A stretch of DNA of 46,195 nucleotides. Origin: a virus. Below are positions 6,344 through 46,195 of this stretch, piece by piece. A program made the translations under genes and the position numbers. The notes below the pieces were generated by a model. The model did not search any database. It was given only the letters and a program-made list of their open reading frames with translations, and was not told the DNA's origin. The DNA lies in the IMG/VR virus record IMGVR_UViG_3300007352_000148, positions 1-46,195 of that record, one strand, 5' to 3'. Positions within the stretch are counted from its first letter, which is position 1, and every line of letters starts with the position of its first letter.

Positions 6344-6363
6344 ATAGCCCTCAAGTACTTCAG

Positions 6364-6594
6364 TTAAACCCAAACGATATTTATTCCCAAAACGGTTGTA
6401 ATGCCTGCCTCAAACTGCTCGCGAAAATGCCGTTTTGATAATTTGACATACCTTCCTGCGCGAGGCATGCCTTTGCTATCGGCGTGTTTTACCCGTGGTA
6501 ACATAATTTCAACCAGCGGCATTACAAGACGCACTTTCTCGTCGATCTCGCAAAGGGTACGCTCTAAGATTTCCATCCGGTCAAGAGTTGTCAT
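6364..6594 (-). CDS. Small hypothetical protein
   Basis: 76 residues. The start overlaps the upstream stop as ATGA. The N-terminal half is a predicted helix with heptad character (ILERTLCEIDEKVRLVM), and the C-terminal half is basic. No family recognised. It is part of the packaging and portal block. Confidence 0.6.
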   Translation of the reverse strand: MTTLDRMEILERTLCEIDEKVRLVMPLVEIMLPRVKHADSKGMPRAGRYVKLSKRHFREQFEAGITTVLGINIVWV

Positions 6595-6902
6595 GCGTTC
6601 CCCTCATACTTCATCTTGAAACGAATTCGTGCATGTTCCGCAACTAACTCTCTCCAATTTGCAGGCGGTTCTGGCATTTCGTGCTTTAAAGCAAAGTAAC
6701 AGGATTCGCCGTTCTTGTGCGTTGCCAGTCCACGGGTACCGTAACCGAAAGTCTCGAGTCTGAACGTTTCTACATAAAACACTGTAAACTCTTCAGGCTT
6801 TTCCTCTCTCCACCCAAGGGCTGGGACAGTGGGAACAGTAACCGCAACGACTGCACCTATCATTGCTTTCAGGAAGCCACGTCTTGAAATGTCATTCATC
6901 AT
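6591..6902 (-). CDS. Secreted protein with twin-arginine (Tat) signal
   Basis: 103 residues from an ATG overlapping the upstream stop (ATGA). The N-terminus has a textbook Tat signal: SRRGFLK at residues 6-12, a hydrophobic stretch MIGAVVAVTVPTVPA, then an ALG-type cleavage region near residue 30. The mature part of about 70 residues has aromatic beta-prone strands and a C-terminal helix, with no recognised domain. Tat export implies folding before crossing the inner membrane. Sitting between portal and terminase, it is an unusual cargo for that location. A host-cell or envelope-modifying role is possible but unproven. Confidence 0.7.
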   Translation of the reverse strand: MMNDISRRGFLKAMIGAVVAVTVPTVPALGWREEKPEEFTVFYVETFRLETFGYGTRGLATHKNGESCYFALKHEMPEPPANWRELVAEHARIRFKMKYEGNA

Positions 6903-7360
6903 GCGTTCCCCTTGATATGTTTTGAGCTGATGACGATGTTCGACGTCTGCAGCGGTATCATCATCTGCGGCAGCAACTGCCCGTTCTTCATCTTCCGATC
7001 CGGGAACGATACCAGCGGCTGATACTCCGGTTTCTTTCTCGGATCCGGGTTGTGGAGCACTTTCATGATCCATGTGCCGGTCAGTTCCGGTTTCTTCCGA
7101 ACGTTCACATGCAGGACCACGATGTTCATGAACTGCATGCGGCGCTTGAGGTCTTCCATGGGGAGGTTTAAGTCCCGGGCTCCGATCACCCCGCAGTGCT
7201 CCTCGAGGAATAACCTAACGTTGCCTTCTAAGTCCGCATGCGCCTTCGAAATCATCTTCTGCAACTTGGGACTGGCTAGGATGATCTGCTTCCCCTGCTC
7301 CCCGCGCAGTTCTTCGGGCAGGATCTCGACGCCGGTTAAAAGTCCGTTCTTGGCGGCCAT
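6899..7360 (-). CDS. Hypothetical protein
   Basis: 153 residues. A helical N-terminus (residues 25-70) is followed by beta strands (QFMNIVVLHVNVRKKPEL, TGTWIMKVLHN). No family recognised. It is coupled to the Tat-signal gene by an ATGA overlap. Confidence 0.6.
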   Translation of the reverse strand: MAAKNGLLTGVEILPEELRGEQGKQIILASPKLQKMISKAHADLEGNVRLFLEEHCGVIGARDLNLPMEDLKRRMQFMNIVVLHVNVRKKPELTGTWIMKVLHNPDPRKKPEYQPLVSFPDRKMKNGQLLPQMMIPLQTSNIVISSKHIKGNA

Positions 7361-7362
7361 GG

Positions 7363-7446
7363 CTATACCCCAATCCCAAACAGGCCCGTCGGTTTTCCGT
7401 TATTCATCGTTGTATTTGCTGTTAATGTGATCAAGAACTTTTTCAT
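7363..7446 (-). CDS. Very short ORF, 27 residues
   Basis: The ATG overlaps the stop of the upstream gene as ATGA, the coupling pattern used throughout this operon, and the stop lies 2 bp before the next ATG. The peptide begins MKKFLITLTANTTM. It fills the gap exactly, which supports translation, but the length gives no independent proof. Confidence 0.35.
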   Translation of the reverse strand: MKKFLITLTANTTMNNGKPTGLFGIGV

Positions 7447-8360
7447 TGCGCCTTCCTTTCTGTGGAGGTCGACCCGGATGCTTTCTCTGCGCTCGGAGTG
7501 CATTCGGCACATTTCCCAACCGTCTCGTTTGTGCTGCATGAGCATGGTACCGGCTCTGTCTTTCGAATGATACTGGACGGATTGTCAAAGGGGTAATGCT
7601 TGAACGGTGTAGGGTCTTTAAATTCCATTGGCCGCCCCGGTTTCAAGTTCCCCAGATCGATCTTCGGAGCGCACCCTTGTTTTTCTCTGACTTGATTACG
7701 AGCATACAGTGCCCGCTCGATTGCATATTTCGTTCGTTCTGCCGTTGATCTCCCTTGGTTACGCTCACATATTTTTTTGAATGTGGCATCCAGATCTCCA
7801 AGTCCATCGTAATAATCTCGCAATTCCTTCTCGTGCTCTTCACGAATAATGTCATCAAGGATTGCAACTGTTTCGGTTGATATAATGTTTCCTTCTGTCG
7901 CTGTCGGTTGCGGCGCGCAGGACTTGCAGTAGTAGGGAGTGACGATACGCTCCTCTCTGGTGGGTTCAAACGTACCTGAAAGTGTCATAAATCCCGTCTT
8001 TTCCTCAATGAACGATTTACCCCTGACCGCCTTCTCTTGCTTCACCATGCAGCCGCAGGTGGCGCAGTCGATGGTATTGGTTGCGCCACTCTTAAATAAT
8101 TCTTTTAGGAATTCAATCTCCTCTCTGGTCATCGGAGTCGGTTTCTCGGGAGTTGCAGCGCATGCGTCGGTAGCTGCACGTGCGAGGTTCGGAATACCAG
8201 ACATACTTTCTGCCACGTCGTGCAGCATGCTCACTGTTTTCGCAAAATACTTTGCGGCCTGCATATGCTGTATCCGCATGTACTGAATAAAATTAGTCGC
8301 CACTAACGTAGCCAGCAACACCCCCAATATCACGAGTACAACAATCGGTAATGTAATCAT
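7443..8360 (-). CDS. Membrane-anchored Cys-containing protein
   Basis: 305 residues. An N-terminal membrane helix (residues 3-26, LPIVVLVILGVLLATLVATN) anchors the protein. CATCGC near residue 100 and YYCKSCAP near 145 form a likely zinc ribbon, then a charged helical part and a low-complexity Ser/Thr tail with further Cys pairs (CSCS, CAEC). The start has AAGGAAG upstream. No family recognised. It lies between terminase and portal genes. Confidence 0.65.
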   Translation of the reverse strand: MITLPIVVLVILGVLLATLVATNFIQYMRIQHMQAAKYFAKTVSMLHDVAESMSGIPNLARAATDACAATPEKPTPMTREEIEFLKELFKSGATNTIDCATCGCMVKQEKAVRGKSFIEEKTGFMTLSGTFEPTREERIVTPYYCKSCAPQPTATEGNIISTETVAILDDIIREEHEKELRDYYDGLGDLDATFKKICERNQGRSTAERTKYAIERALYARNQVREKQGCAPKIDLGNLKPGRPMEFKDPTPFKHYPFDNPSSIIRKTEPVPCSCSTNETVGKCAECTPSAEKASGSTSTERKAQ

Positions 8361-8380
8361 CTCAACTTCCTTTCCGCGCG

Positions 8381-8548
8381 TCAGCGCACTCGGTATCTTC
8401 CCAGGATTGTCTTTCTATAAAAATCTTCCAGCATCTTCCTTGATTTGATTTTTGGGTCCGGGTCAGGCGTTTTAATAAGCACTACTGCAACTGTGAATAA
8501 CGTTGTTAGCGTTACTATAATGCACCATACTATTTCGAAAACATTCAT
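8381..8548 (-). CDS. Small single-span membrane protein
   Basis: 55 residues. Residues 4-27 form one hydrophobic helix (IVWCIIVTLTTLFTVAVVLI), followed by a basic tail rich in Lys and Arg. AAAGGAT precedes the ATG. It lies between the HAD-like gene and a second membrane protein gene. Function unknown. Confidence 0.55.
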   Translation of the reverse strand: MNVFEIVWCIIVTLTTLFTVAVVLIKTPDPDPKIKSRKMLEDFYRKTILGRYRVR

Positions 8549-8561
8549 CTCTTATCCTTTC

Positions 8562-8894
8562 TCAGCGCACCGGCACCCCGGTATTGGTTTTTACCTGCAC
8601 GCAGCGGTCGTCCCAAATTTCATCAAACCGCATGCTTTTCTCGTTCGTGACCTCGAGATGCCCGATCCCCTGCTTGGACAGCCAGTCCTTGACAAACGGA
8701 ACGGCATCAGGATTATCAGCGCGCGCCGTGAAAATAACGACCTCATGACCATGCTTGAGCCAGGCCTTAACTCTCCTGAGCATCCCCGGGACCGGAGCCC
8801 CGATGTGCTCAATGCCCATCCACCCGCCATATTTGGCGAGCGTACCGTCCAGGTCGACGGCATAAACTTTACGGTCTGAAAACAGGCTTTTCAT
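8562..8894 (-). CDS. HAD-superfamily phosphatase-like protein
   Basis: 110 residues. Motif I is AVDLDGTLA (nucleophile Asp14, acid Asp16). Motif II is VVIFTARA with the Ser/Thr after the strand. The C-terminus has FDEIWDDR, matching the acidic motif IV. The length is that of the short phage HAD proteins without a cap. The start overlaps the TerL stop as ATGA. Its substrate is unknown. Polynucleotide or nucleotide phosphatase is plausible from family membership. Confidence 0.75.
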   Translation of the reverse strand: MKSLFSDRKVYAVDLDGTLAKYGGWMGIEHIGAPVPGMLRRVKAWLKHGHEVVIFTARADNPDAVPFVKDWLSKQGIGHLEVTNEKSMRFDEIWDDRCVQVKTNTGVPVR

Positions 8895-10648
8895 ACCAGT
8901 GCTCCAGCCGGCACCGTCGGGCCCATCGTGCTCCCGGACATCACTGCCCTGATCACGCTGGGGAGAGGTAGCCGCTTCCGAACCCACTGCCCGATCGCGT
9001 AGGATATCACCCGGTCGTCGAAACAACCGGACTCGGCGCCTATCGTCCCGTCATCGTTGTGCTTCATGGACATCATTTCCCAGTACGTTTCTGGGCAGAC
9101 GATGCCCTCGGCACCCTGATTAAAAAGCTCTACTAGGCCGTCAATAACGAGTGACTTCGCGTCTCCGTACTTCCCGCCCTTAGTCACCCATCCATAACGC
9201 TTAACGGGCATATGCGGAGGATTCGGCTGGGTTTCTGCGTAAATGTTCGGGTACGCCATCTCTACCAGCTTCCCGACCACGGCTGTACCATGATTGTTTC
9301 TCTCGGGCACCAACCAGGCTGTGTTATACCTGTACCCCAGATGTGCGAGCAAAATACCGAATTGCACGGCGTCAATACGTCCATGCCATTGAGCAACCTG
9401 TTTCCCTGTCAGTTGTTCAATCACATCGGCGTTTGAAAAATCCGCATGCTTGCTGGTGATCATGATGCCTTCGGCAACGTCTGCGGAAATCAAATAGGGC
9501 ACCCCGGGCTTCGGTTCTTCCCACACCTGCAGCAGTTTATCGGTATCGCCGGCAAGCGGGTTCTTCGCTATGAACTGGCCGATAGAGGTTAAACACTCGT
9601 AATATGCAACGGGCTTTTTGCATGCCTTCCGCCGGTCGTCGGCTTTTTCTGCGTCTACAATCGGACGCCCAGAGGCAAGGAAAGCCTCTTTCGCATTACT
9701 CGGATACTCCTGGCGGAAAATTCTTTCATCGCCGCGGCATTTGTTCTGGATCGCCCAGCGACGATATTGTAGATGGCAATCGTTGATGCCGTATCTAACA
9801 ACCATCTCCTGTTCATACGGCGTTCTGGTAAACCCGGGCTCGGGATCCATCTGGTATTTCGGGAACACGAACCACGGGATAAACACGCTCGAGAATTCAT
9901 TGTCTTTGTCGGCGTCGGGGTTGACTGTGCAGCGGAAGTCGGGGTTGCCGTCTCTGCCGATGAAAACCTCATACCGGTACCGGGCCGCCCAGTAGTTGTC
10001 GTGGAACTCGCCGCCGGTCCCGGCTGCGGTGCTTTCTCCGATGATCTCAGTGTCTGGCTCGTCAGGAACGCACTGAATAAGCGAAGTCAGCAGGGCTGAA
10101 ACCGTGTGCTTCGGCCACTTGGCCAATTCGCTCAAATGCAGATAATGAATCAACTGGCCGGAACCGAGGTGTAGTTTCCCCGCCGTGCCCACGCGGATCG
10201 CGGAGTCGAGGCCGGTGCCTTCTTTGGTGTTGAATTCGAGGATTGATGTGTTATTGAATCGGGTCTTTGGTTTCAGAGGAGCATGGTCGTAATACCGCTT
10301 GACCATGCCGAAAATAAAATCAGTGGCGTCCGGCTCGTGGGTCACATGCATTGCATACCGGTTTCGTGCGTGGGTTGTTTTGTGATAGAAGCATCCCGTT
10401 GTGTCTGTAGATATTCCTTCGCGCCGGGCTTTCAATACCCACATGCGCAACAGCCTACCGTTATTAACAATGTCGCGCTTGATTTTGTGGAGAACCAACT
10501 GGACGGGGTTGAAAGTAAAGTCAATCAGGTCGCCTTCTGGGGTCTGAATCTTCAGGTTGGCGGGCGCATACTTTTCGAAATCAAGTCCAACCTCGATCAT
10601 TTCGTCGGTGATTTCGAATTTACTATGTTGAGTTTCGGTATCGATCAA
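8891..10648 (-). CDS. terL: Terminase large subunit
   Basis: 585 residues. The ATPase domain has a Walker A variant KARREGIST at about 73-81 and an acidic HYLHLSELAKW segment as Walker B near 170. The nuclease domain has LISADVAEG (first catalytic Asp), VPERNNHG and a final DDRVISYAIG Asp pair, as in RNase H-fold terminase nucleases. The subunit cuts concatemers and drives DNA through the portal. The start is TTG in a TTGA overlap with the TerS stop, with AAGAG upstream. Confidence 0.9.
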   Translation of the reverse strand: MIDTETQHSKFEITDEMIEVGLDFEKYAPANLKIQTPEGDLIDFTFNPVQLVLHKIKRDIVNNGRLLRMWVLKARREGISTDTTGCFYHKTTHARNRYAMHVTHEPDATDFIFGMVKRYYDHAPLKPKTRFNNTSILEFNTKEGTGLDSAIRVGTAGKLHLGSGQLIHYLHLSELAKWPKHTVSALLTSLIQCVPDEPDTEIIGESTAAGTGGEFHDNYWAARYRYEVFIGRDGNPDFRCTVNPDADKDNEFSSVFIPWFVFPKYQMDPEPGFTRTPYEQEMVVRYGINDCHLQYRRWAIQNKCRGDERIFRQEYPSNAKEAFLASGRPIVDAEKADDRRKACKKPVAYYECLTSIGQFIAKNPLAGDTDKLLQVWEEPKPGVPYLISADVAEGIMITSKHADFSNADVIEQLTGKQVAQWHGRIDAVQFGILLAHLGYRYNTAWLVPERNNHGTAVVGKLVEMAYPNIYAETQPNPPHMPVKRYGWVTKGGKYGDAKSLVIDGLVELFNQGAEGIVCPETYWEMMSMKHNDDGTIGAESGCFDDRVISYAIGQWVRKRLPLPSVIRAVMSGSTMGPTVPAGALV

Positions 10649-11229
10649 CTCTTTTTCCCCTGTGACTCTTTCCGCTTTTGCTCCAGCCGGTCGATGTACG
10701 CTGAGAAAGGATCCTCGACTACCACGGTGGAACGATAAATCCCCAGACGCTTGCCTTTCATGTCTAGGGCTTTCAGTTTGTCATAAACCTTCAGGTTGGT
10801 GACTTTGATGAGCGGCTTACTGCCATTACCCCCGCCGACCTGCGTATGCTCAATTTCGTGAATTATGGCCAGTTGCTCGTCAGTAAGCTCGCTGATGTCT
10901 TTGAGAGTTCCATCGGGCTTATAGAAATCATGATGCCCGCGGTAGAAAGCGATCATGTCAATTTCTCGGTCCCAATCTTCCGCAGTTTTAATGGCCTTAT
11001 TTTCCACTTTGGCCATAAGCTCTTGAATTCGCTTCTGAACCTTTGCTAAAGCTAACCATTTGGCTGCGACCACATCTGGGTTTTTAGCCTTACTCCCCGC
11101 CCGCCTTGCGGCCTCGGCGCCTTTCCCCTTCATGCCGCCCAACTCCACGTATTTAAAGCAGAAAAACTCTTGAGCCTGAGTTAGTTTGTCACGCTTGGGG
11201 GTCTTCCTTTTCTCCCTAGCTTTTGCCAT
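10645..11229 (-). CDS. terS: Terminase small subunit
   Basis: 194 residues. The N-terminal segment LTQAQEFFCFKYVELGG with GKGAEAARRAGSK and VQKRIQELMAK matches the Terminase_2-type helix-turn-helix DNA-binding domain (family knowledge). The rest is a helical oligomerisation region and a basic tail (QKRKESQGKKS). It recognises the packaging start site and loads TerL, which follows with a TTGA overlap. Confidence 0.85.
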   Translation of the reverse strand: MAKAREKRKTPKRDKLTQAQEFFCFKYVELGGMKGKGAEAARRAGSKAKNPDVVAAKWLALAKVQKRIQELMAKVENKAIKTAEDWDREIDMIAFYRGHHDFYKPDGTLKDISELTDEQLAIIHEIEHTQVGGGNGSKPLIKVTNLKVYDKLKALDMKGKRLGIYRSTVVVEDPFSAYIDRLEQKRKESQGKKS

Positions 11230-15325: not shown

Positions 15326-15384
15326 GTTGCCTCCCTGACTAACCAGTCGTTCGTGTGGGATGCTTCGCACCCCACAACTCAGCG

Positions 15385-15561
15385 TTATCGTCCTACTATC
15401 TCGCCCAAATTGGTCATTTCTTCGATTGACCATGCCGATTTTATAGTCGGCTGCATTGATGATTTCTTTGTGTATGAGGACCATTTTTTGACGGCCTCAC
15501 TTGCATTCCGAGCAATAATTATGCCTGTTGTCCAAGAGCTTCTTATCTGCCATGCAAACAT
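15385..15561 (-). CDS. Small hypothetical protein
   Basis: 58 residues from the ATG preceded by AAGGAG, which decides the start. MFAWQIRSSWTTGIIIARN followed by a Ser/Lys-rich helix. Unknown. Confidence 0.5.
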   Translation of the reverse strand: MFAWQIRSSWTTGIIIARNASEAVKKWSSYTKKSSMQPTIKSAWSIEEMTNLGEIVGR

Positions 15562-23965: not shown

Positions 23966-26956
23966 CTATGCGTGGGCATAAACCGCATGATTGGCGTAAT
24001 TTGCCTTCACCAGTGCTGCCGCGATCCCTGGGCATACCGAATTACCGCACAGTCTTACCTGTGCTGTTTTGGTGAATGGCTTACCGTGCATATCGTGCTC
24101 GATAATATAGGTGTCGTAGAATCCCTGAGCACGGAATATTTCGCGTGGCGCGAGCATGCGGAGACCTATATCAATGATTTGGTAGTCTTCCCCGTGGACC
24201 TTTACTAAACCGAAACGATCTCTTGTTGAAATTGTATTAATTGGCTTCCGTATGTCATGGGATTCACTGGCTGCATGGTATTGCAAGAGGAATGCCCGGA
24301 CTTCTCCGAAGTGAAGGCCGCCAGCCGTGATTGTCTGCAGCGGTTCACGTGAGTCCTGACCGATATTCGTACCCTTGAGCTTAACCAAGTGTGACGTTAC
24401 AAGGCTGTCTTTGTCACGTTGAGTAACCGTCCGCACTGGTTCGTCGGCAGCATATCCTATGCTCGATCCCATGTATCGAACAAGACTCGCGGCTACCAGG
24501 GAATGATGGTCTACTGACGTGACCGTGCCGAGCGGCATTTCAACCTGCGAGCCCACGACTCCGCCGTAGTGTTTGGCGAGGAAGGCAGAAACGAGGGCAT
24601 GCCTTTGAGTTGCGGTAATTGTTGGTAGTGGATCATCGACAGGATGGCAACGGTCCTCGTCACCTTTTGAAGAATAGAGTGAAGACAAAACAGGAGATAC
24701 CAGCGCCAGCTCTCCCCGGTGCGCAGCGGTTATCGTCGGAAATGGGTCTTTAATATCATTGGTCCTATCGCCTCCCTGATGGGTCAGTGGAATAAGATGT
24801 GGCATGACGAGTGCGCTGTCTGCCTTTGCCGTAACCGTTGCAACAGGTTCCTCTATATGCCTCGGCCTTGACTGTCCTGCCCGTCCGCCAACTCCTATTA
24901 TATGGGGCGCAACGAGCGCAAAGTGTCCGCCCTTTGTCTCCGCACAGATAGTTCTGAGCGGTTCATCAATGGGCATAGAACGCGGCGATGATCCGTTGGC
25001 GTGCTCAGTAATATACGGGACTACCAGTCCGTGCCGGTTCTCCGTAGTTTGCGTTGCCAGCGGATCGCCAACAGATTGCCCGCGGAACTCTCCGCCCTTA
25101 TCGCCATAGTACGTCACGATAAACGGCTCAGTCGAATCTGTGACATACCGCTTAATACCCATGGCAATGCGGCGTTGCGTGGCTTCGGCCAGCGGTTTCT
25201 TGCGCTCGAATATAGACGGCGCGGGAATATCCCATTGGATGCACTCGGCCGCAGTTCTCCAAGGCAGGAGTTTTCCACTCTTTACGGCTGCGCTTTTCGG
25301 GTCACCATGTGTCGGCTCGGGCCACACAATAGGCTGTCCGTCTGAGCGGGCAATGAGAAAGAGACGCTTCCGGATGGTCGGGTCGCCATAATCACAAGCC
25401 CTGAGCATTTTATGGTCAACTTCGTAACCATTTTTACGGAGGGCATTGAGAAACGAACGGAAGGTTCGGCCCTTGCGTTTCGGACACGGGTACTGCTTGC
25501 CGTCCGTTTTGGTGATCAGCGGTCCCCAAGTGATGAATTCCTCGACGTTCTCGAGCATGATTACCCGTGGTTTTACCGTAGCAGCCCAGCGGAGAACTAC
25601 CCAGGCAAGCCCACGGATCTTCTTACTGACAGGTTTCGTGCCCTTGGCCTTAGAGAAATGTTTGCAATTATGAACGACAATACCTTCAACAATGTAGCTT
25701 TCATCGTCCTCGACGCCAATATTAAAAACATCGGTTTCAACAACTGCGGGTTCCTGGCTACGAATAGGACACCACTCAAGGCCACTCTCGGCAATAGTTT
25801 GACTATGACCATCAACAATATTTTCTCGCCATCGAAGCAGGTAAATTGGCCTCGCGTTGACAATTCGGCCTTGAATTTCATTGCTGTTTTGTAAAAGATG
25901 AACTGTGACTGTTTTCCCAAGAGAATTCAGGAGGGCTTTGATTCCGAAAGCGAGGTGTTTGGATACCGTGCGGCATTCGGTAAATTGTTTTCCTGCCCAT
26001 CCATCCGCAGAAAGGTATCCGTCAAGCAAAGACTGTTTAAAGGCTGGTCCGATACCGAGTGCCCAAGCTGGAATTCGTTTTGACTCGGCCCTGTGCCCAA
26101 AGTGTTCTCGTAACCATTCCACTAAACCACGGTGGTTTGTACTGAATTGATATGCTGTACCAGTCTCCCGCTCGTGCCACGCCAACTCATTAAAACCGGC
26201 ACGTTCTCCTTCACGCATCCATGTGTTGATTGTCTGGCGAAGTTTTTCTACCTCATGCTTACCGCAGGTGAGAACCAATTCAGCGCGTGTATCTGTGAGG
26301 CGTGTCCAGCCGTCTCCAAGGTAACGACCAACAAGCCACATAAAGCGGTTGTCTGCAACCATGCCGCGACCCAACACAGGAGGTATTGTTGACGCCGGGA
26401 AGGTCGTAGGAGTTGCCCAATACCACCCTTTTGTGAGAAGCGATGCTGGTGCCCAGCCAGCGTCTCCCAGAACACGCCCATATCCTCGAGGTTCGGTACA
26501 CCATACGCTTTTACGATGACGAACATAGAATGGATGCTCAGGACTCACAAGTAACCCGGGATGCCCATGTCCCTTAATTGACATCAACGGCTTGCGTGTA
26601 TGAGATACCTCTGTTACCCGTCCCCAACGCAGTTTATGTGTGAGTACTTCATCGCCAACTTCGATTTCTTCAATGGCTTGATAGCCCCGGCGCGTGAGTA
26701 CCAGTGTTCCTGCCGGGAAACAGTCCGGGCTGAACCATGCCAGGCCGACGGGCCTGCCGGCGCATTCAACCATCGGGTTGACTTTCCACACGTCTTCCCG
26801 GAGATGCTTTGTGAACGGGTGATTTACCTGATGCATCCGGATCGCGTCCGCATCGTGGTTTACAGCGATATCGATCGGGCGCCCAAGGGCCCGCTCTATC
26901 CCCGTTGATGCTCCGCCGCCGCCCGCAAAATTATCGACTACGATTTCTCCTGTCAT
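23966..26956 (-). CDS. C5-cytosine DNA methyltransferase with intein
   Basis: 996 residues before splicing, about 644 after. Motif I is VVDNFAGGGGASTG (6-19). The motif IV catalytic Cys is residue 431 (SPD then CKHFSKAKG after splicing). Motif VI is MLENVEEF, motif VIII is YGDPTIRKRLF, and QVRLCGNSV near the end is motifs IX/X. Between the motifs is a nine-fold repeat of about 31-37 residues (PLxTITxxxRHALV...), likely target recognition. The enzyme methylates phage DNA, probably against restriction. The intein spans 79-430. Confidence 0.92.
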   Translation of the reverse strand: MTGEIVVDNFAGGGGASTGIERALGRPIDIAVNHDADAIRMHQVNHPFTKHLREDVWKVNPMVECAGRPVGLAWFSPDCFPAGTLVLTRRGYQAIEEIEVGDEVLTHKLRWGRVTEVSHTRKPLMSIKGHGHPGLLVSPEHPFYVRHRKSVWCTEPRGYGRVLGDAGWAPASLLTKGWYWATPTTFPASTIPPVLGRGMVADNRFMWLVGRYLGDGWTRLTDTRAELVLTCGKHEVEKLRQTINTWMREGERAGFNELAWHERETGTAYQFSTNHRGLVEWLREHFGHRAESKRIPAWALGIGPAFKQSLLDGYLSADGWAGKQFTECRTVSKHLAFGIKALLNSLGKTVTVHLLQNSNEIQGRIVNARPIYLLRWRENIVDGHSQTIAESGLEWCPIRSQEPAVVETDVFNIGVEDDESYIVEGIVVHNCKHFSKAKGTKPVSKKIRGLAWVVLRWAATVKPRVIMLENVEEFITWGPLITKTDGKQYPCPKRKGRTFRSFLNALRKNGYEVDHKMLRACDYGDPTIRKRLFLIARSDGQPIVWPEPTHGDPKSAAVKSGKLLPWRTAAECIQWDIPAPSIFERKKPLAEATQRRIAMGIKRYVTDSTEPFIVTYYGDKGGEFRGQSVGDPLATQTTENRHGLVVPYITEHANGSSPRSMPIDEPLRTICAETKGGHFALVAPHIIGVGGRAGQSRPRHIEEPVATVTAKADSALVMPHLIPLTHQGGDRTNDIKDPFPTITAAHRGELALVSPVLSSLYSSKGDEDRCHPVDDPLPTITATQRHALVSAFLAKHYGGVVGSQVEMPLGTVTSVDHHSLVAASLVRYMGSSIGYAADEPVRTVTQRDKDSLVTSHLVKLKGTNIGQDSREPLQTITAGGLHFGEVRAFLLQYHAASESHDIRKPINTISTRDRFGLVKVHGEDYQIIDIGLRMLAPREIFRAQGFYDTYIIEHDMHGKPFTKTAQVRLCGNSVCPGIAAALVKANYANHAVYAHA
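25667..26722 (-). mobile_element. Intein with LAGLIDADG-type homing endonuclease
   Basis: 352 residues. Block A: Cys1 followed by FPAGTLVLTRRG and EIEVGDEV. Block B: GLLVSPEHPFYV with the His. Endonuclease motifs: LVGRYLGDGW (206-217 region of the protein) and LLDGYLSADGW. C-terminal blocks: DVFNIGVEDDESY and IVVHN, then the +1 Cys. All splicing residues (Cys1, block B His, penultimate His, Asn, +1 Cys) are present. The +1 Cys is the methyltransferase nucleophile. Confidence 0.93.
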
Positions 26957-29546: not shown

Positions 29547-29963
29547 TTATTTTTCTTTTGCCATCTGCATGAGTCGCGCAGCTACAACGACCTCATCAAC
29601 TTGGTATCGTTTCGCAAAAAATGACACAACATCCGGTCGATCCTTGTATTTTTCCCAGTCGGGAAGAAACAGGCTATCCGGCATCAGTAAGTGCAGCGCA
29701 AATTCATTCGCTTCTTTCTCGTCTCGATCTTCTAGTATCGTGGTCATATTTACCCTTGTTATCGTGTCTTGCGCTCGCTTATTCCATAGCCCAATCGCGC
29801 CTCTGCGTGATTTCTTCGGATAAGTACGAACTAGGCATTTTAGGCATTCGATCTGCCACCATTTATGATTGACCATCGTGCTTTCATAGTTATCAACCCG
29901 CGCTTTACCGCCGCAGAATGGACACGATAACAAAACGGTCGAATCAGATTTCGCTTTGCTCAA
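29547..29963 (-). CDS. Lar-like zinc ribbon fused to an ImmA/IrrE-like C-terminal half
   Basis: 138 residues from a TTG preceded by GGAGGTGA. Residues 14-45 are a Lar-type zinc ribbon (CPFCGGKARV ... IECLKC), ending in LWNKR. Residues 75-138 have EKEANEFALHLLMP, the third-helix signature of ImmA/IrrE (DUF955) metallopeptidases. The HExxH helix that normally precedes it is absent. Lar alleviates type I restriction and ImmA cleaves phage repressors, but the missing zinc ligands argue against peptidase activity. Confidence 0.65.
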   Translation of the reverse strand: MSKAKSDSTVLLSCPFCGGKARVDNYESTMVNHKWWQIECLKCLVRTYPKKSRRGAIGLWNKRAQDTITRVNMTTILEDRDEKEANEFALHLLMPDSLFLPDWEKYKDRPDVVSFFAKRYQVDEVVVAARLMQMAKEK

Positions 29964-29977
29964 CTGTTCACCTCCAC

Positions 29978-30175
29978 GTTGGTGCGGCGCTTCGCGCCGG
30001 AAACCTTTTACGTCTGGGCGGGCTGGTAGGGACTTTCGGTTCTGCCACCATCACCCGACGATCGGGAGTCCTCCCGGCGAAGGGATTCTCATCCACGGTA
30101 CGGTATCGTTTTAGCGACAGCCGCCGCCAGTTCCCGCCCAGACGTAAAAGCTTTTTATATTAAGCGCCGCACCAA
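29978..30175 (-). other. ORF-less structured cassette, possible non-coding RNA
   Basis: Two nested perfect inverted repeats: 14 bp (29979-29992 with 30162-30175) and 18 bp (30005-30022 with 30133-30150, CTTTTACGTCTGGGCGGG), continued inward by CTGG/CCAG. The ~105 bases inside hold further short hairpins (GGGAG/CTCCC) and no ORF of useful length on the transcribed strand. The outer ends match cassette ends. The first 43 bp in transcription order recur inverted at 46153-46195. Confidence 0.6.
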
Positions 30176-30180
30176 TGGGG
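30138..30180 (-). repeat. 43-bp repeat, inverted copy of 46153-46195
   Basis: The 43 bp are identical to the reverse complement of the last 43 bp of the window and diverge immediately beyond (CC versus G after the GGGG). The window therefore ends exactly where a second copy of the structured cassette begins. Confidence 0.95.
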
Positions 30181-30233
30181 CCGTTAAGTCGTGACCGGCA
30201 AGCATTGGTTGATGCGTCGCACACTACGCGCCG

Positions 30234-30301
30234 CACCAACCAAGCCGTTCAAGACCGACCGCCCCTAACGGGGCGGCGACTTAACGGCCCCATTAAATTT
30301 C
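30234..30301 (-). mobile_element. attC-like site m2
   Basis: Minus strand: GCCGTTAAG pairs with CTTGAACGGC leaving one unpaired G, and GCCGCCCC pairs with GGGGCGG around GTTA. The site begins inside the stop of the nuclease ORF (GAAATTTAAT, complementary to the cassette's own start) and ends in GTTGGTG. Part of a larger three-way structure closed by the 18-bp perfect inverted repeat 30174-30191/30277-30294. Confidence 0.7.
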
Positions 30302-30739
30302 TTCATGCCTCACGAAGACGGCGGTTGATAGTTCCAACCTCCGCAAAACTGAGACAAGCATCACTACTTCGGCGCTCTTGTTCGCAGCGGTATACGTTGC
30401 CTCTTTTGCCGTTCGCACTTGTTTATCGTATAACTCAAGCAAGCCCCACGAGTCAGGCAATTCATCGGGCTTGACGAGTTTCGCGGGAACTAGAAAATAA
30501 CGGTGATCCCCCATACCGCGCTCTTGTTCCCGGCGAAATATTTTATTCTTATCCGAGAGAAAATCTGCTCTCGATGCCTTGCACTCCACAAGGATGCTAG
30601 CTCCACCAGAAGCATAGAAGCCTATCGCGTCTGGAGTTTCGGTGTTGTGTGTAGTGGCAAGTTCGGCCAAAATGATTGTGCAACGCCGATTATTTGCAAG
30701 CCATGCCTGAGCTTTTTTGACCAACTCTTTATGAGTCAA
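30293..30739 (-). CDS. PD-(D/E)XK nuclease-like protein on a cassette
   Basis: 148 residues. TPDAIGFYASGGASILVECKAS contains the PD-(x)n-ECK core, followed by SRADFLSDKNKIFRR and DHRYFLVPAKLV, as in small restriction-endonuclease-fold proteins. It may be a nuclease or a DNA-repair/defence protein. The ORF is embedded in a cassette: 11 bp after its leading GTTAAATTTC comes no strong ribosome-binding site, and its TAA stop lies in the complementary GAAATTTAAT. Confidence 0.75.
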   Translation of the reverse strand: MTHKELVKKAQAWLANNRRCTIILAELATTHNTETPDAIGFYASGGASILVECKASRADFLSDKNKIFRREQERGMGDHRYFLVPAKLVKPDELPDSWGLLELYDKQVRTAKEATYTAANKSAEVVMLVSVLRRLELSTAVFVRHEEI

Positions 30740-30752
30740 ACCGACCTCTGAA

Positions 30753-30810
30753 ATTTAACCAGTCAGTCCAGCCGTCCAAAAAGGACGGCAGCTGACTTCT
30801 GCGTTATGGT
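30753..30810 (-). mobile_element. attC-like site m1
   Basis: Minus strand: AGTCAG/CTGACT and GCCGTCC/GGACGGC around a T5 loop, with unpaired bases between the two stems on the second arm, ending in GTTAAAT, which fits GTTRRRY. Starts at CATAACGC, which supplies the stop of the upstream gene. Very similar to site m3. Confidence 0.7.
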
Positions 30811-33019: not shown

Positions 33020-33254
33020 TGTGAGCGCATTAGCGGAAACACTCAGCAAAGCCAGAACGCGCCGTAAGTTGTCGATGAACGACGTATCCAGGCAGTCCAG
33101 CATCGCCAAAGATCACCGCGGCAGGATCACTCAGGGCTACATCTCCCGCCTTGAGTCTGGCAAAGAAACAAACCCATCATTCCTGAAACTGCAGACGCTG
33201 TGCAATATTTACCGGATCAATCCGGGGACACTCTTTAAGCAAACGGTGAGATAG
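33020..33254 (+). CDS. XRE-family DNA-binding protein
   Basis: 77 residues from a GTG preceded by AAGGAGG, which decides the start. SALAETLSKARTRRKLSMND, then GYISRLESGKETNPS and IYRINPGTLF is an HTH_3 domain. The stop codon TAG lies inside the 5' end of the tRNA gene. Probably an early activator or anti-repressor-type regulator. Confidence 0.7.
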
Positions 33255-33328
33255 ACTTGTACGGCGCAAGAGCGGACTGTAAATCCGATCCGAAAGGCCA
33301 GGAGGTTCGATTCCTTCTCTCACCACCA
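33245..33328 (+). tRNA. tRNA-Tyr (GTA)
   Basis: Acceptor GGTGAGA (33245-33251) pairs with TCTCACC (33318-33324), then A and encoded CCA. D stem CTTG/CAAG, anticodon loop CTGTAAA with GTA at 33279-33281, a short variable stem, and T arm GGAGG-TTCGATT-CCTTC. Bases 33245-33254 are shared with the end of the upstream CDS. Phage tRNAs often match late codon use or replace cleaved host tRNAs. Confidence 0.85.
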
Positions 33329-43515: not shown

Positions 43516-43767
43516 ATGAGTAACGAGCAGCCGCAAAAAGTAGTGAATACTCTCCCGGCCGAGGGCCTTTGTCGACTCAGGCAGATCATAGGATACAGGG
43601 ATAAAGATTCTGGTGAATGGGTGCCAGGCTTCCTTGCTATCAAAAAAAGTGCATGGTATCGGGGGATCATAGAAGGCAAATACCCGAAGCCTGCAAAGAA
43701 GTTTGGCACTCGCTGCACTTTATGGGATGTTGATGATATCAGGAAGCTGAAAGAAAAGGCATCGTAA
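43516..43767 (+). CDS. AlpA-like DNA-binding regulator
   Basis: 83 residues. GAGGAG precedes the ATG. GLCRLRQIIGYRDKDSGEW, KKSAWYRGIIEGKYPKPAKK and LWDVDDIRKLKEKA match the AlpA/phage excisionase-like winged HTH pattern. The stop (TCGTAATGCG) starts attC-like site 4. Confidence 0.75.
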   Translation: MSNEQPQKVVNTLPAEGLCRLRQIIGYRDKDSGEWVPGFLAIKKSAWYRGIIEGKYPKPAKKFGTRCTLWDVDDIRKLKEKAS

Positions 43768-43820
43768 TGCGATACTGACCCCTGCTACTTTAGCGTGGGT
43801 GTCGAGCACTCTGGTTAGTT
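43761..43820 (+). mobile_element. attC-like site 4
   Basis: From TAATGCG in the stop to GTTAGTT. GAC-CC-GC pairs with GC-GGG-GTC around TACTTTA, with unpaired bases on the second arm, then GAGCACTCTGG-TTAG. Just past the core, GCACTCTGG (43806-43814) pairs with CCAGAGTGC (43823-43831). Confidence 0.65.
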
Positions 43821-43842
43821 TTCCAGAGTGCGGAAAGGCAGC

Positions 43843-44085
43843 ATGATAAAGATTACAGACAGACGGTCAATTTTAAAACAGGTCATCAGCGGGATTTGCT
43901 GGTCTCCGGTGGCTCTCATCGGCTTATTTATTGCTGCGCTCGTGGGCCTGATGGCATACGGTATTACAATTACCATTCTTGGCGGCGGGCTGCTTAAAGT
44001 CATTATTGGATTAGCGAAGTCTGCCGGTATTATGGCCGTGGTTTTCGGATACATCATTGCATTTATATGGTCGAACCAAAACTAA
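43843..44085 (+). CDS. Two-span membrane protein on a cassette
   Basis: 80 residues. Helices GICWSPVALIGLFIAALVGL and IMAVVFGYIIAFIW with a GITITILGGGLLKVII stretch between. AAAGG precedes the ATG. Ends AACCAAAACTAAC, exactly complementary to the cassette start 43814-43822. Confidence 0.65.
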   Translation: MIKITDRRSILKQVISGICWSPVALIGLFIAALVGLMAYGITITILGGGLLKVIIGLAKSAGIMAVVFGYIIAFIWSNQN

Positions 44086-44183
44086 CGCGAGCATGAGCCG
44101 CGTACACATTGGAGGGCAAATGAAGCATTTTATTAAAACCACAACGGAGCAGATCGGGCGACGGCTCGATGCTCTGGTTAGAA
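44077..44183 (+). mobile_element. attC-like site 5
   Basis: The clearest site. GAGCAT-GAGCCG pairs with CGGCTC-G-ATGCTC: twelve base pairs with one extra unpaired base on one arm, then TCTGGTTAG. About 60 bp of loop. Its first core AACTAAC is exactly complementary to the start of its own cassette. Confidence 0.75.
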
Positions 44184-44189
44184 TTTGTC

Positions 44190-44369
44190 ATGTTCATTGG
44201 CATTCTAAGTTTGCGAGATCGTGGATATGTCACTCATACCCATGCTATTATCCTGTTTCTGATTATCGCTGCCGATGTGGGCACATTAAGACATATCGCA
44301 CAAATTGATTTTAACGCGGCGCTGACCTGCCGCAGCGAAGCGGAGGCCAGTGTCGAGCGTCCTGGTTAG
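44190..44369 (+). CDS. Small membrane protein on a cassette
   Basis: 59 residues, MFIGILSLRDRGYVTHTHAI followed by LFLIIAADVGTL hydrophobic stretch. It reads through the following attC-like site and stops in GTTAG. No ribosome-binding site visible. Confidence 0.4.
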   Translation: MFIGILSLRDRGYVTHTHAIILFLIIAADVGTLRHIAQIDFNAALTCRSEAEASVERPG

Positions 44370-44371
44370 AA
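44306..44371 (+). mobile_element. attC-like site 6
   Basis: TTTTAACGCGG, arms CGCTGACCTGCCGC and GCGGAGGCCAGTGTCG around AGCGAA, ending TGGTTAGAA. The arms pair with one unpaired base. The core is complementary to the start of its cassette allowing a G-T pair. Confidence 0.7.
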
Positions 44372-44374
44372 TTT

Positions 44375-44998
44375 ATGCCAATGATCGCAGCACTATATGT
44401 TATGAAAAACGGCGTCTATTATGGGTTGCCCGACGTGGACCCATGGGACGCTCACCGCGACGCCCGGAAGTACGCAGGGCCTTTCCCGGTTGTCGCACAT
44501 CCGCCCTGTGAACGATGGGGCCGCTATTGGAGCGGAGGGCCGATGTTGGCAAGGACGCCGAAGGCCAAAAAAAAGGGCGACGATCAGGGATGTTTTGAGG
44601 CGGCGATAAATGCAGTACGCCGATTCGGCGGAGTCATTGAACATCCCGAGGGCAGCCACGCATGGACGGCATTCGGTTTGAACAAGCCACCGCGAACCGG
44701 GGGATGGGTGACGGCAGACTTTGAGGGCGGCTGGACATGTTGTGTCGAACAGGGACATTACGGGCACAGAGCTCGCAAGGCAACCTGGTTATATGCGCAC
44801 AGCGTAGAATTGCCGGATTTGAAGTGGGGTTCGTGCGGTAAAAAGGAACGGCTGGAAGACGGATACCATTCAACGGAAGAGCGGCGGCGGGCAGTTCGTA
44901 CCGGGATTTGCCAGAGGTTATCGAAAAACCAGCGCACCGCGACGCCGCAGGAGTTCCGGGATTTGTTGATTGGAATTGCAAAGACGGTACGGAATTAA
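44375..44998 (+). CDS. Conserved phage/cassette protein with HPPCERWG motif
   Basis: 207 residues. VVAHPPCERWGRYW, GGVIEHPEGSHAW, CCVEQGHYGHRARKATW and a C-terminal LSKNQRTATPQEFRDLL. The PPC and ATPxxFRDLL blocks recur in a family of phage proteins distantly resembling DNA methyltransferases (PPC in place of PCQ). Activity unknown. The core GTTAGAATTT starts 10 bp before the ATG. Confidence 0.7.
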   Translation: MPMIAALYVMKNGVYYGLPDVDPWDAHRDARKYAGPFPVVAHPPCERWGRYWSGGPMLARTPKAKKKGDDQGCFEAAINAVRRFGGVIEHPEGSHAWTAFGLNKPPRTGGWVTADFEGGWTCCVEQGHYGHRARKATWLYAHSVELPDLKWGSCGKKERLEDGYHSTEERRRAVRTGICQRLSKNQRTATPQEFRDLLIGIAKTVRN

Positions 44999-45059
44999 AA
45001 TTCCAACGCTTGCGTCAACCGCGAGCGAAGCGTAGACGGTTTGGACGCAATTGTTATGC
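44998..45059 (+). mobile_element. attC-like site 7
   Basis: AAATTCCAACGC (complementary to the cassette start 44365-44374, 9 of 10), arms TGCGTC-AACCG with CGGTT-TG-GACGCA, two unpaired bases on one arm, ending TTGTTATGC. Confidence 0.75.
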
Positions 45060-45081
45060 GCCATCACGGAAAAGGAGAACA

Positions 45082-45300
45082 GTGAAAACTATTATCACGA
45101 AACAACAGTTCACAGAGTTAGTGGGGATTCTGGCACTCGCAGATCATGAAATGAAAATCCTCAACACCCTAAACGATGCGGCACACGCTATCACAGGTGA
45201 AAAAGATGATTGGGGACATACGGCAGATGCGATCTGGGACGACAACCTACGAGACGCGAAAAAATTGTTGAGGAAGCTCAAAATCATCGTTAAAAAGTAA
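45082..45300 (+). CDS. Small cassette protein
   Basis: 72 residues from a GTG preceded by AAGGAG. FTELVGILALADHEMKILNT and AKKLLRKLKIIVKK, helical. Flanked by GTTATGCGC and GCGCATAAT. Confidence 0.6.
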   Translation: MKTIITKQQFTELVGILALADHEMKILNTLNDAAHAITGEKDDWGHTADAIWDDNLRDAKKLLRKLKIIVKK

Positions 45301-45366
45301 GCGCATAATGCGGCAGTTAAGCCTCGGCCCCGTCAGGGGCCGAAGGTCTTGAACTCCTGGTTCTCT
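45301..45366 (+). mobile_element. attC-like site 8
   Basis: GCGCATAATGCGGC, then GTTAAG-CC-TCGGCCCC paired with GGGGCCGA-AGG-CTTGAAC leaving one unpaired G, ending CTGGTTCTCTC. Inside the 18-bp perfect inverted repeat 45307-45324/45403-45420. Confidence 0.7.
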
Positions 45367-45420
45367 CAGCGCTGATTTATAGCGCGTTTTGAGAAGGAGT
45401 TCAGGCTTAACTGCCGCATT
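45307..45420. repeat. 114-bp imperfect palindrome / three-way structure
   Basis: Closed by AATGCGGCAGTTAAGCCT and its perfect reverse complement, with two internal stems (GGCCCC/GGGGCC and TGAACTCCT/AGGAGTTCA). The structure at 30174-30294 has the same design with an 18-bp closing stem of different sequence. Confidence 0.8.
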
Positions 45421-45470
45421 CCCTCAGCGCGGCTCATGTAAAAGGCTTTAAGCTGAAAGGAGATTACACA

Positions 45471-45617
45471 ATGGCAACGAAAATCGAAAAGGTGCTTCAA
45501 GATACAGAAAAATGGCTTGAAAAAGAAAAAACGTGGGAAGACGATTTAGACGGATTAGATGCCATAGATATAGCGAAGGCTGTAATTCATCGGATCAGAG
45601 AGCGGCTTTCAGCTTAA
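45471..45617 (+). CDS. Small cassette protein
   Basis: 48 residues, IEKVLQDTEKWLEKEKTWED, then AIDIAKAVIHRIRERL, helical. AAAGGAG precedes the ATG. Flanked by inverted repeats (TTCCCTCAGCGC ... GGCTTTAAGCTGAAAG at 45418-45459 with 45607-45646). Confidence 0.6.
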   Translation: MATKIEKVLQDTEKWLEKEKTWEDDLDGLDAIDIAKAVIHRIRERLSA

Positions 45618-45640
45618 AGCCTACCTCTAATCAGCGCTGA

Positions 45641-45696
45641 GGGAACCCGACAAAATGAGGGGTGCGGAGCATCCCGCTCGATTTTAATGGTTAGCC
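45641..45696 (+). mobile_element. attC-like site 9
   Basis: GGGAACCCGAC, then AAAAT-GAG-GGG paired with CCC-G-CTC-G-ATTTT (two unpaired G), ending ATGGTTAGCC. The sequence 45629-45647 is complementary (18 of 19) to the cassette start 45359-45377. Confidence 0.75.
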
Positions 45697-45729
45697 GCTT
45701 TCATCGGTTTAGCCAGAAAGGATACTATT

Positions 45730-46044
45730 ATGAGTTGGGGAGAAAGAAGCTGCAAGCGGCCTTGTCGTTGTCCTCAGAAATGTAAAATGGAAACGTGTAA
45801 TGTTGATTGTTCCTCGTATGAATGGGATGGTGTGACAAAACCAGATTCGGCGTCAAAAATAATGAAATATTGGCCTTGTGAATGTCCTTTTATCGTGGGG
45901 CAGAATAGGTGTCAAGTTCATGATGCTGAAGCTACATGGATAATGTTCGATACGCCATTACGGGGTTATGACAACCAGAGAGTACAGGAGGCCCTTAAAT
46001 CACTGGAAGAGCTGTGCAGGTCGGGCAAGAAGTTAAGCGGCTAA
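45730..46044 (+). CDS. Cys-rich cassette protein
   Basis: 104 residues. RSCKRPCRCPQKCKMETCNV has six Cys. AAAGGAT precedes the ATG. A central helix follows (ALKSLEELCRSGK). Probable metal binding. Its stop lies in AAGCGGCTAACC, exactly complementary to the cassette start 45689-45700. Confidence 0.6.
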   Translation: MSWGERSCKRPCRCPQKCKMETCNVDCSSYEWDGVTKPDSASKIMKYWPCECPFIVGQNRCQVHDAEATWIMFDTPLRGYDNQRVQEALKSLEELCRSGKKLSG

Positions 46045-46099
46045 CCCCGGGGCTAAGCCATCGCCCGTAGGGCGATTGGTTTTGAACTCCTGGTTGATA
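46035..46099 (+). mobile_element. attC-like site 10
   Basis: AAGCGGCTAACC, ATCGCCC-GTA-GGGCGAT stem extended by CC/GG and AA/TT, then TTTTGAACTCCTGGTTGAT. The 3' part TTGAACTCCTGGTT is shared with site 8. Confidence 0.7.
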
Positions 46100-46152
46100 C
46101 GGCGCGTAGCTTGCGCCGTGCCAACCGATTAGAGACTTCAGCGGCTCAAGGC

Positions 46153-46195
46153 CCCCATTGGTGCGGCGCTTAATATAAAAAGCTTTTACGTCTGG
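46153..46195 (+). repeat. 43-bp repeat at the window end
   Basis: Perfect inverse of 30138-30180, the entry into the structured cassette. The assembly stops here, as expected for a repeat longer than the assembly overlap. Confidence 0.95.

Follow-up and report, generated by a model that had tools for sequence, protein, structure and literature searches.

The stretch of DNA considered here (the window) is the IMG/VR virus record IMGVR_UViG_3300007352_000148 in its full length of 46,195 bases, and towards its end it carries an array of seven hairpin sites which separate small open reading frames (ORFs). A first-pass annotation made from the sequence alone had read this array as integron-type cassettes inside a temperate phage, and both an attC model and the phage genes support the identification of the sites as integron attC sites bounding cassettes within a temperate tailed phage. 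That annotation overlooked the inversion of the sites relative to the genes and the presence of attCs at several further places in the genome. We consider it likely that the virus is a phage which lacks the integron integrase IntI and harbours, in several clusters, inverted integron cassettes of a phage type, with ORFs antisense to the attCs. The annotation's remark that no phage with attC arrays had been described does not stand, as such phages were reported by Qi et al. 2023 (PMC9892861); phage attC arrays are already known, and the new aspect is the polarity of the cassettes.

Identification of the sites as attC

A longer record of the same virus, IMGVR_UViG_3300007351_000003 (83,217 bases; the 83-kb record below), is 100% identical to the window in the stretches compared and extends beyond it on both sides, the window corresponding to its positions 21328-67522 and the array to 65088-67522. 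The hallmarks of attC, namely R''/R' boxes (RYYYAAC/GTTRRRY), L boxes that pair and leave extra bases on a single arm, and a variable terminal structure, are present, with conserved R and L boxes and extrahelical bases at the observed sites. Every one of the seven sites lies where the first-pass annotation had placed it and forms an imperfect hairpin, with its extra bases almost wholly confined to one arm, as is evident from the sequence, the repeats and the pairing.

A directional covariance model was built from 39 bacterial attC sites, all from integron loci and situated upstream of intI; it is of our own construction, its E-values are rough, and the weak sites depend on geometry. The class 1 attCs of R388, which were outside the seed, score 60-65 bits with this model. 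Significant matches were recovered at s3, s2 and s4 of the array (Table 1, in order of score), at three further window sites missing from the first-pass list (b0, b2 and a single site at 15.3 kb) and at two sites past the window end, which lie near the phage integrase in the 83-kb record (34.9 and 16.5 bits); s5-s7 and b1 scored weakly and s1 gave no match. A covariance-model search of the kind suggested with the annotation thus gave a clear result for three of its seven sites and a weak one for three, with the first discernible only by eye. Since s2, s3 and s4 fall within 1 kb and no IntI is found in 83 kb, they constitute a cluster of attC sites lacking an integron integrase (CALIN), as defined by two or more clustered attCs in the absence of intI.

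The start of a cassette is complementary to the end of its own attC, as expected of a split attC: the pairing score of adjacent ends was 76 against 37.9 +/- 7.5 for shuffled partners (nine sites, including two beyond the window; permutation p = 9e-5), and the pairing spans 7-19 bases in most cassettes. The complementarity of adjacent cassette ends that had been noticed by eye is thereby confirmed, and the weak sites (45303, 45640, 46039 and 43762) are backed by this pairing together with their hairpin geometry. ORFs do lie between the sites, but the original count of six was slightly generous, because the 139-nt cassette at 44177-44315 contains no convincing ORF of its own. The weak scores of several sites would also be expected if they were terminators, repeats or other hairpins that resemble attC; this is very improbable in light of the conserved boxes and extrahelical bases, the complementary cassette ends, the 34.9-bit site past the window end and a chance control, in which 808 kb of other phage DNA yielded one match of at least ~22 bits, against four in the 46-kb window (Poisson P = 4e-7).

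Polarity of the cassettes in the phage genome

Canonical attCs carry their extra unpaired bases on the top strand's 5' arm, and 40 of the 51 reference sites that were strictly defined have them nowhere else. In the window phage the canonical attC strand is minus where the genes run rightward (the array and the two sites beyond the window end) and plus where they run leftward (15.3 and 29.9-30.8 kb), and all eight sites of at least 16 bits, including those past the window end, are antisense to the local genes. Scores on the opposite strand are at or near background (34.9 versus 5.9 bits for the best site), and at 12 of 13 sites the pairing puts most of the extra bases on what is canonically the 5' arm. 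The usual arrangement, with the cassette ORF oriented as its attC, is hence not what is observed here. Two of the cassette genes, A3 (phrog_12600) and B1 (phrog_631), have homologs in the PHROG families, and their direction is therefore real. Cassettes are found in at least four places of the genome, and in each they read with the local operon.

PHROG matches of the virus include the large and small terminase subunits, a portal-like head-tail adaptor, DnaB, RecT and an SbcC-like ATPase, while a phage tyrosine integrase (phrog_1) is encoded beyond the window end in the 83-kb record; the virus thus has the terminase, head-tail genes and integrase of a temperate tailed phage. No IntI match was obtained in the 83-kb record with TIGR02249 at E <= 10, and the best tblastn hit for IntI there had an E of 0.03. 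The record accordingly does not contain a complete integron, and the initial observation that no integron integrase is visible holds over its full length. A chimeric assembly of a host integron contig with phage DNA could be entertained for a metagenomic virus record that comes without reads for checking. It is hardly credible, given that the sites form at least four clusters that lie between phage genes, on either side of the genome, with a polarity that tracks the local operon, and that the 83-kb record has the same sequence with phage genes on both sides.

Cassette polarity in bacterial integrons and in IntI-encoding phages

The IntI samples used for comparison, bacterial and viral, consist of the 80 top matches to a single query alignment, and co-directional gene blocks may be preferred by virus classifiers. 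Of 51 cassettes in bacterial integron loci, 45 had their longest ORF on the attC strand, and a coding-score gene caller returned 28 sense versus 6 antisense; with the same caller the IntI-encoding IMG/VR contigs gave 21 sense versus 57 antisense. All 22 IntIs with arrays called antisense fall in a single viral clade of 30 sequences, which has no bacterial member (first seen in a quick tree; support 100/96 in a careful tree). Polarity was also assessed independently of the caller, by scanning the longest ORF on each strand of each cassette against PHROG or Pfam. In the cassettes of the phage IntI clade the antisense ORFs matched 44 PHROG families and the sense ORFs one, the former including DNA methyltransferases, Mom-like proteins, PAPS reductase, an exonuclease and a DHH phosphoesterase; in bacterial cassettes sense ORFs matched 27 Pfam families and antisense ORFs none. 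The clade structure and this strand-homology test argue that the inversion is real despite the limits of sampling. Four clade arrays had been called sense by coding score; for three of them (L137, L097 and L129) this assignment was rejected, as inspection of the proteins of both strands showed them to be antisense (including a Dam-like methyltransferase and PAPS reductase).

A search of 369 gammaproteobacterial genomes with one clade IntI supplied ten bacterial sequences from among the best matches that were added to the tree. Nine of these were placed outside the clade and one inside it (clade of 31 rows, support 99/94; approximately unbiased (AU) test for its exclusion, p = 0.057). The latter lies on L264, a 49-kb contig of genome G370 that appears phage-like from its proteins as read by eye, with long runs of genes of phage-structural size. 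At 5437-11118 it combines an SbcC-like gene, IntI, two attCs and an SbcD-like gene in one block, and its genes are antisense to attC, as predicted. SbcCD cuts hairpins, and the SbcC/SbcD-like neighborhood may thus be relevant to attC folding. Among the other loci inspected, the called cassette genes are sense in L266, L267 and L268 and mixed in L269.

TerL is encoded in the clade contigs L096, L100, L122 and L142, and in several clade contigs tail proteins or a phage integrase adjoin the integron. The typical order in the clade is an early operon, cassette ORFs with attCs on the opposite strand, a co-directional intI, a phage integrase and convergent tail genes; the window phage has a similar gene order minus intI. 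The antisense layout of its cassettes, in a phage genome, is that of the IntI-encoding clade phages, and one cassette gene family, that of A3, is shared with clade members. Another group of viral IntIs (L103, L135, L164 and L159) lies outside the clade and has attCs downstream of intI on the same strand, as in the inverted-integrase type.

It could be argued that the window array is an ordinary CALIN, a segment of the host's chromosomal integron acquired through recombination or imprecise excision, as in Vibrio phages (Qi et al. 2023). Phages with captured host integron fragments do exist, and the window attCs are no nearer to phage-clade attCs than to bacterial ones. Yet their polarity is opposite to that of bacterial arrays, the several groups of cassettes all run along the local operon, A3 and B1 belong to phage protein families, and the window cassette proteins had no match in the 80 bacterial integron loci; we regard such an origin as unlikely.

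Cassette movement and shared cassette genes

A natural difference of one cassette at the intI end of the array is seen among the IntI-bearing phages: the clade members L149 and L136 match perfectly over 580 and 1,095 bp, and all that sets them apart is one 520-bp cassette beside intI, whose junction is at G^TT of the canonical strand and whose ORFs are antisense to attC. In another pair, L116 and L117, the intI regions are 99.9% identical and the arrays are rearranged, mostly at attC borders.

Relatives of A3 recovered by tblastn stand directly after attC as inverted cassettes in the IntI phages L098 and L106; among 79 viral contigs with A3 relatives an attC was present in only one (L178). Another 23 viral contigs have relatives of A6, and in four of them the locus also includes attCs, which are antisense in L285 and L294 and sense in L291 and L292. 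The IntI-less phage L285, which has an A6 homolog, also encodes a small XerC/D-like recombinase at 6544-7239, between three antisense attCs; the possibility that it is an IntI remnant was rejected, for it is a complete XerC/D-like recombinase.

The attCs of the window phage could be functional while their inversion is a local accident, with no relation to the IntI-bearing inverted phage integrons. The phage indeed has no IntI, its attCs are of a type of their own (TAACCAG, 7 of 13 sites), and they display no sequence kinship with those of the clade. An accident of this kind would nonetheless have to account for the inversion of all eight scored sites in four clusters, for A3 homologs that are inverted cassettes in two clade phages and for IntI-less phages (L285, L294 and L178) that are likewise inverted, and it is quite unlikely.

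Several observations weigh against the interpretation of the window phage as a carrier of phage-type inverted cassettes. Even with filters off, the sites at 45303, 45640 and 46039 reach just 4.7-6.7 bits, though at the right place and on the right strand, and the site at 43762 goes undetected by the model. The attC sequences place the window sites no nearer to the phage clade than to bacterial sites; assignment by attC similarity was rejected, as phage and bacterial sites are insufficiently separated. Inversion is not universal in phages, TJE1 (see below), L291 and L292 being sense, and one clade member, L147, carries one sense cassette. Finally, the window phage has no close relative in the collections, so that gain or loss of cassettes is not seen in this phage itself: the sole relative found in a search with TerL was the 83-kb record of the same virus, and blastn of 8 kb of the window phage against 50,697 phage records gave no match. 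Distant relatives, with RecT or integrase ~50% identical, lack attC, which fits acquisition of the cassettes but lends it weak support because the kinship is low.

Possible mechanism and relation to known systems

The substrate of IntI is the bottom strand of attC in its folded form, and this choice of strand fixes the orientation of a cassette (PMC8946536). With the ORF antisense to attC, cassette genes are co-directional with the phage operon while attC retains the polarity normal for the integrase. The attC bottom strand is here the coding strand of the operon, on which an IntI, supplied in trans by a host integron or a co-resident IntI-encoding phage, or formerly in cis, might act, its G^TT cut inserting or excising units of ORF plus attC; selection could then retain units whose ORF reads along the operon. 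As the window phage has no IntI, its own cassettes, if still mobile, would need that of the host or of another phage.

The polarity of attC has been thought to be fixed by the need for cassette expression from the promoter Pc (PMC8946536). When cassette ORFs are reversed, Pc-driven expression becomes unworkable and reading must come from the phage operon. A phage lineage with nearly all cassettes reversed demonstrates that the integrase chemistry can serve another expression logic, that of read-through within phage operons, and it predicts a cassette pool apart from the bacterial one. The reversed cassettes of the phage lineage mostly carry DNA modification, nuclease and unidentified genes, and phages would gain a site-specific means of swapping small genes, such as those for DNA methyltransferases. 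More tentatively, and with somewhat less than even chances in our estimation, phages might own a separate integron system, in which a monophyletic IntI lineage, situated in phage operons beside phage integrase or recombination genes, shuffles reversed cassettes, with IntI-less phages as its clients; two cassette pools would then coexist, physically recombinable but not expressible in each other's platforms.

Bacterial integrons have the same attC structure (R and L boxes and extrahelical bases) and G^TT borders, and the IntI-encoding phages share with them the geometry of intI and array; the difference is that in the phages the cassette ORFs point to the intI end rather than away from it. In inverted-integrase integrons, such as those of Treponema, intI is flipped whereas the polarity of cassettes and attCs is normal. 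There too intI and cassette ORFs are co-directional, but in the phages it is the cassette ORFs that are flipped instead. Cassettes can also be inserted at attG or other secondary sites. Such insertion could account for the single scattered attCs of the window phage. The name attG is used in PMC12901181.

In phage genomes, Qi et al. 2023 (PMC9892861) identified 17 CALINs and four integrons or In0 elements; they found that five of six phage attCs recombined with IntI1, and described the cassettes of TJE1 and PH101 as all in one direction, in the usual bacterial structure. With the present attC model, the sites of TJE1 obtain their scores on the gene strand. Those phages resemble the window phage in having IntI-less attC arrays within phage genomes; the latter differs in that its ORFs are antisense to attC and its cassettes form several clusters, and in that there is a lineage of phage IntIs whose arrays share this inversion. 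In the literature searched, which largely excludes subscription papers and preprints, we found neither inverted cassettes nor an IntI clade specific to phages described before.

Features of the window

Table 1. Positions of attC sites and cassettes in the window
Feature	Position	Strand	Remarks
attC-like s1 (weak)	43762..43820	-	junction of phage gene 43516-43767 and first cassette; hairpin and GTTAGTTTT / AAAACTAAC pairing with next site
attC s2	44080..44183	-	model 20.5 bits; canonical top strand minus, genes plus
attC s3	44309..44371	-	model 26.1 bits, E 0.0003
attC s4	45001..45059	-	model 18.2 bits; minus strand GCATAACAATTGCGTCC...GACGCAAGCGTTGGAA, resembling class 1 attCs
attC-like s5	45303..45366	-	divergent R'' ending AAT; L-arm pairing, extra bases on same arm; model 4.7 bits at 45315-45354; nested inverted repeats next
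attC-like s6	45640..45696	-	model 6.7 bits; cassette ends pair over ~19 nt
attC-like s7	46039..46099	-	model 4.8 bits; cassette ends GGTTAGCCGCTT / AAGCGGCTAACC
cassette ORF A1, small membrane protein	43828..44085	+	ORF list; no Pfam or PHROG match
cassette ORF A3 (phrog_12600)	44375..44998	+	PHROG E 3.5e-66; tblastn homologs
cassette ORF A4	45082..45300	+	ORF list
cassette ORF A5	45471..45617	+	
cassette ORF A6, Cys-rich	45730..46044	+	N-terminal homologs in 23 other viral contigs
ORF-less cassette start	46093..46195	+	runs past window end (to position 3685 of L006, which includes sequence past that end); 79% identity to 30138-30264
attC b0, second cluster	30753..30809	+	model 22.2 bits; local genes minus
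cassette ORF B1 (phrog_631)	30293..30739	-	PHROG E 1.4e-43; ends GTTAAATTTC / GAAATTTAAT
attC-like b1	30234..30298	+	L-arm pairing; model 6.3 bits, partial
ORF-less cassette, second copy	29978..30240	-	ends GTTGGTGCGGCGC / GCGCCGCACCAAC
attC b2	29928..29981	+	model 22.9 bits; abuts start of gene 29547-29963
single attC	15337..15392	+	leftward gene block; model 22.4 bits; extra-base polarity ambiguous

One cassette of ~260 nt with inverted ends is devoid of an ORF and is present in two copies (46093 onward and 29978-30240), which are 79% identical where compared. The RNA fold of the array copy is better than those of 200 shuffles (z -3.8). The repeat was sought in other viral contigs and none was found there, and Rfam scans of the window and of the array returned nothing relevant. 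At 45303-45430 a perfect 18-nt inverted copy of the left arm of s5 follows that site (AATGCGGCAGTTAAGCCT / AGGCTTAACTGCCGCATT), and a similar arrangement is seen at b1, at 30.2 kb; s5 with its inverted copy looks like a composite or duplicated half-site. Elsewhere in the window there is a tRNA-Tyr (gta) gene at 33245-33328, and on the minus strand at 23966-26956 an ORF of 996 aa that, as read by eye, resembles a DNA cytosine methyltransferase with an apparent intein interruption (CFPAGTLVLT ... VVHNC) and a homing-endonuclease-like middle.

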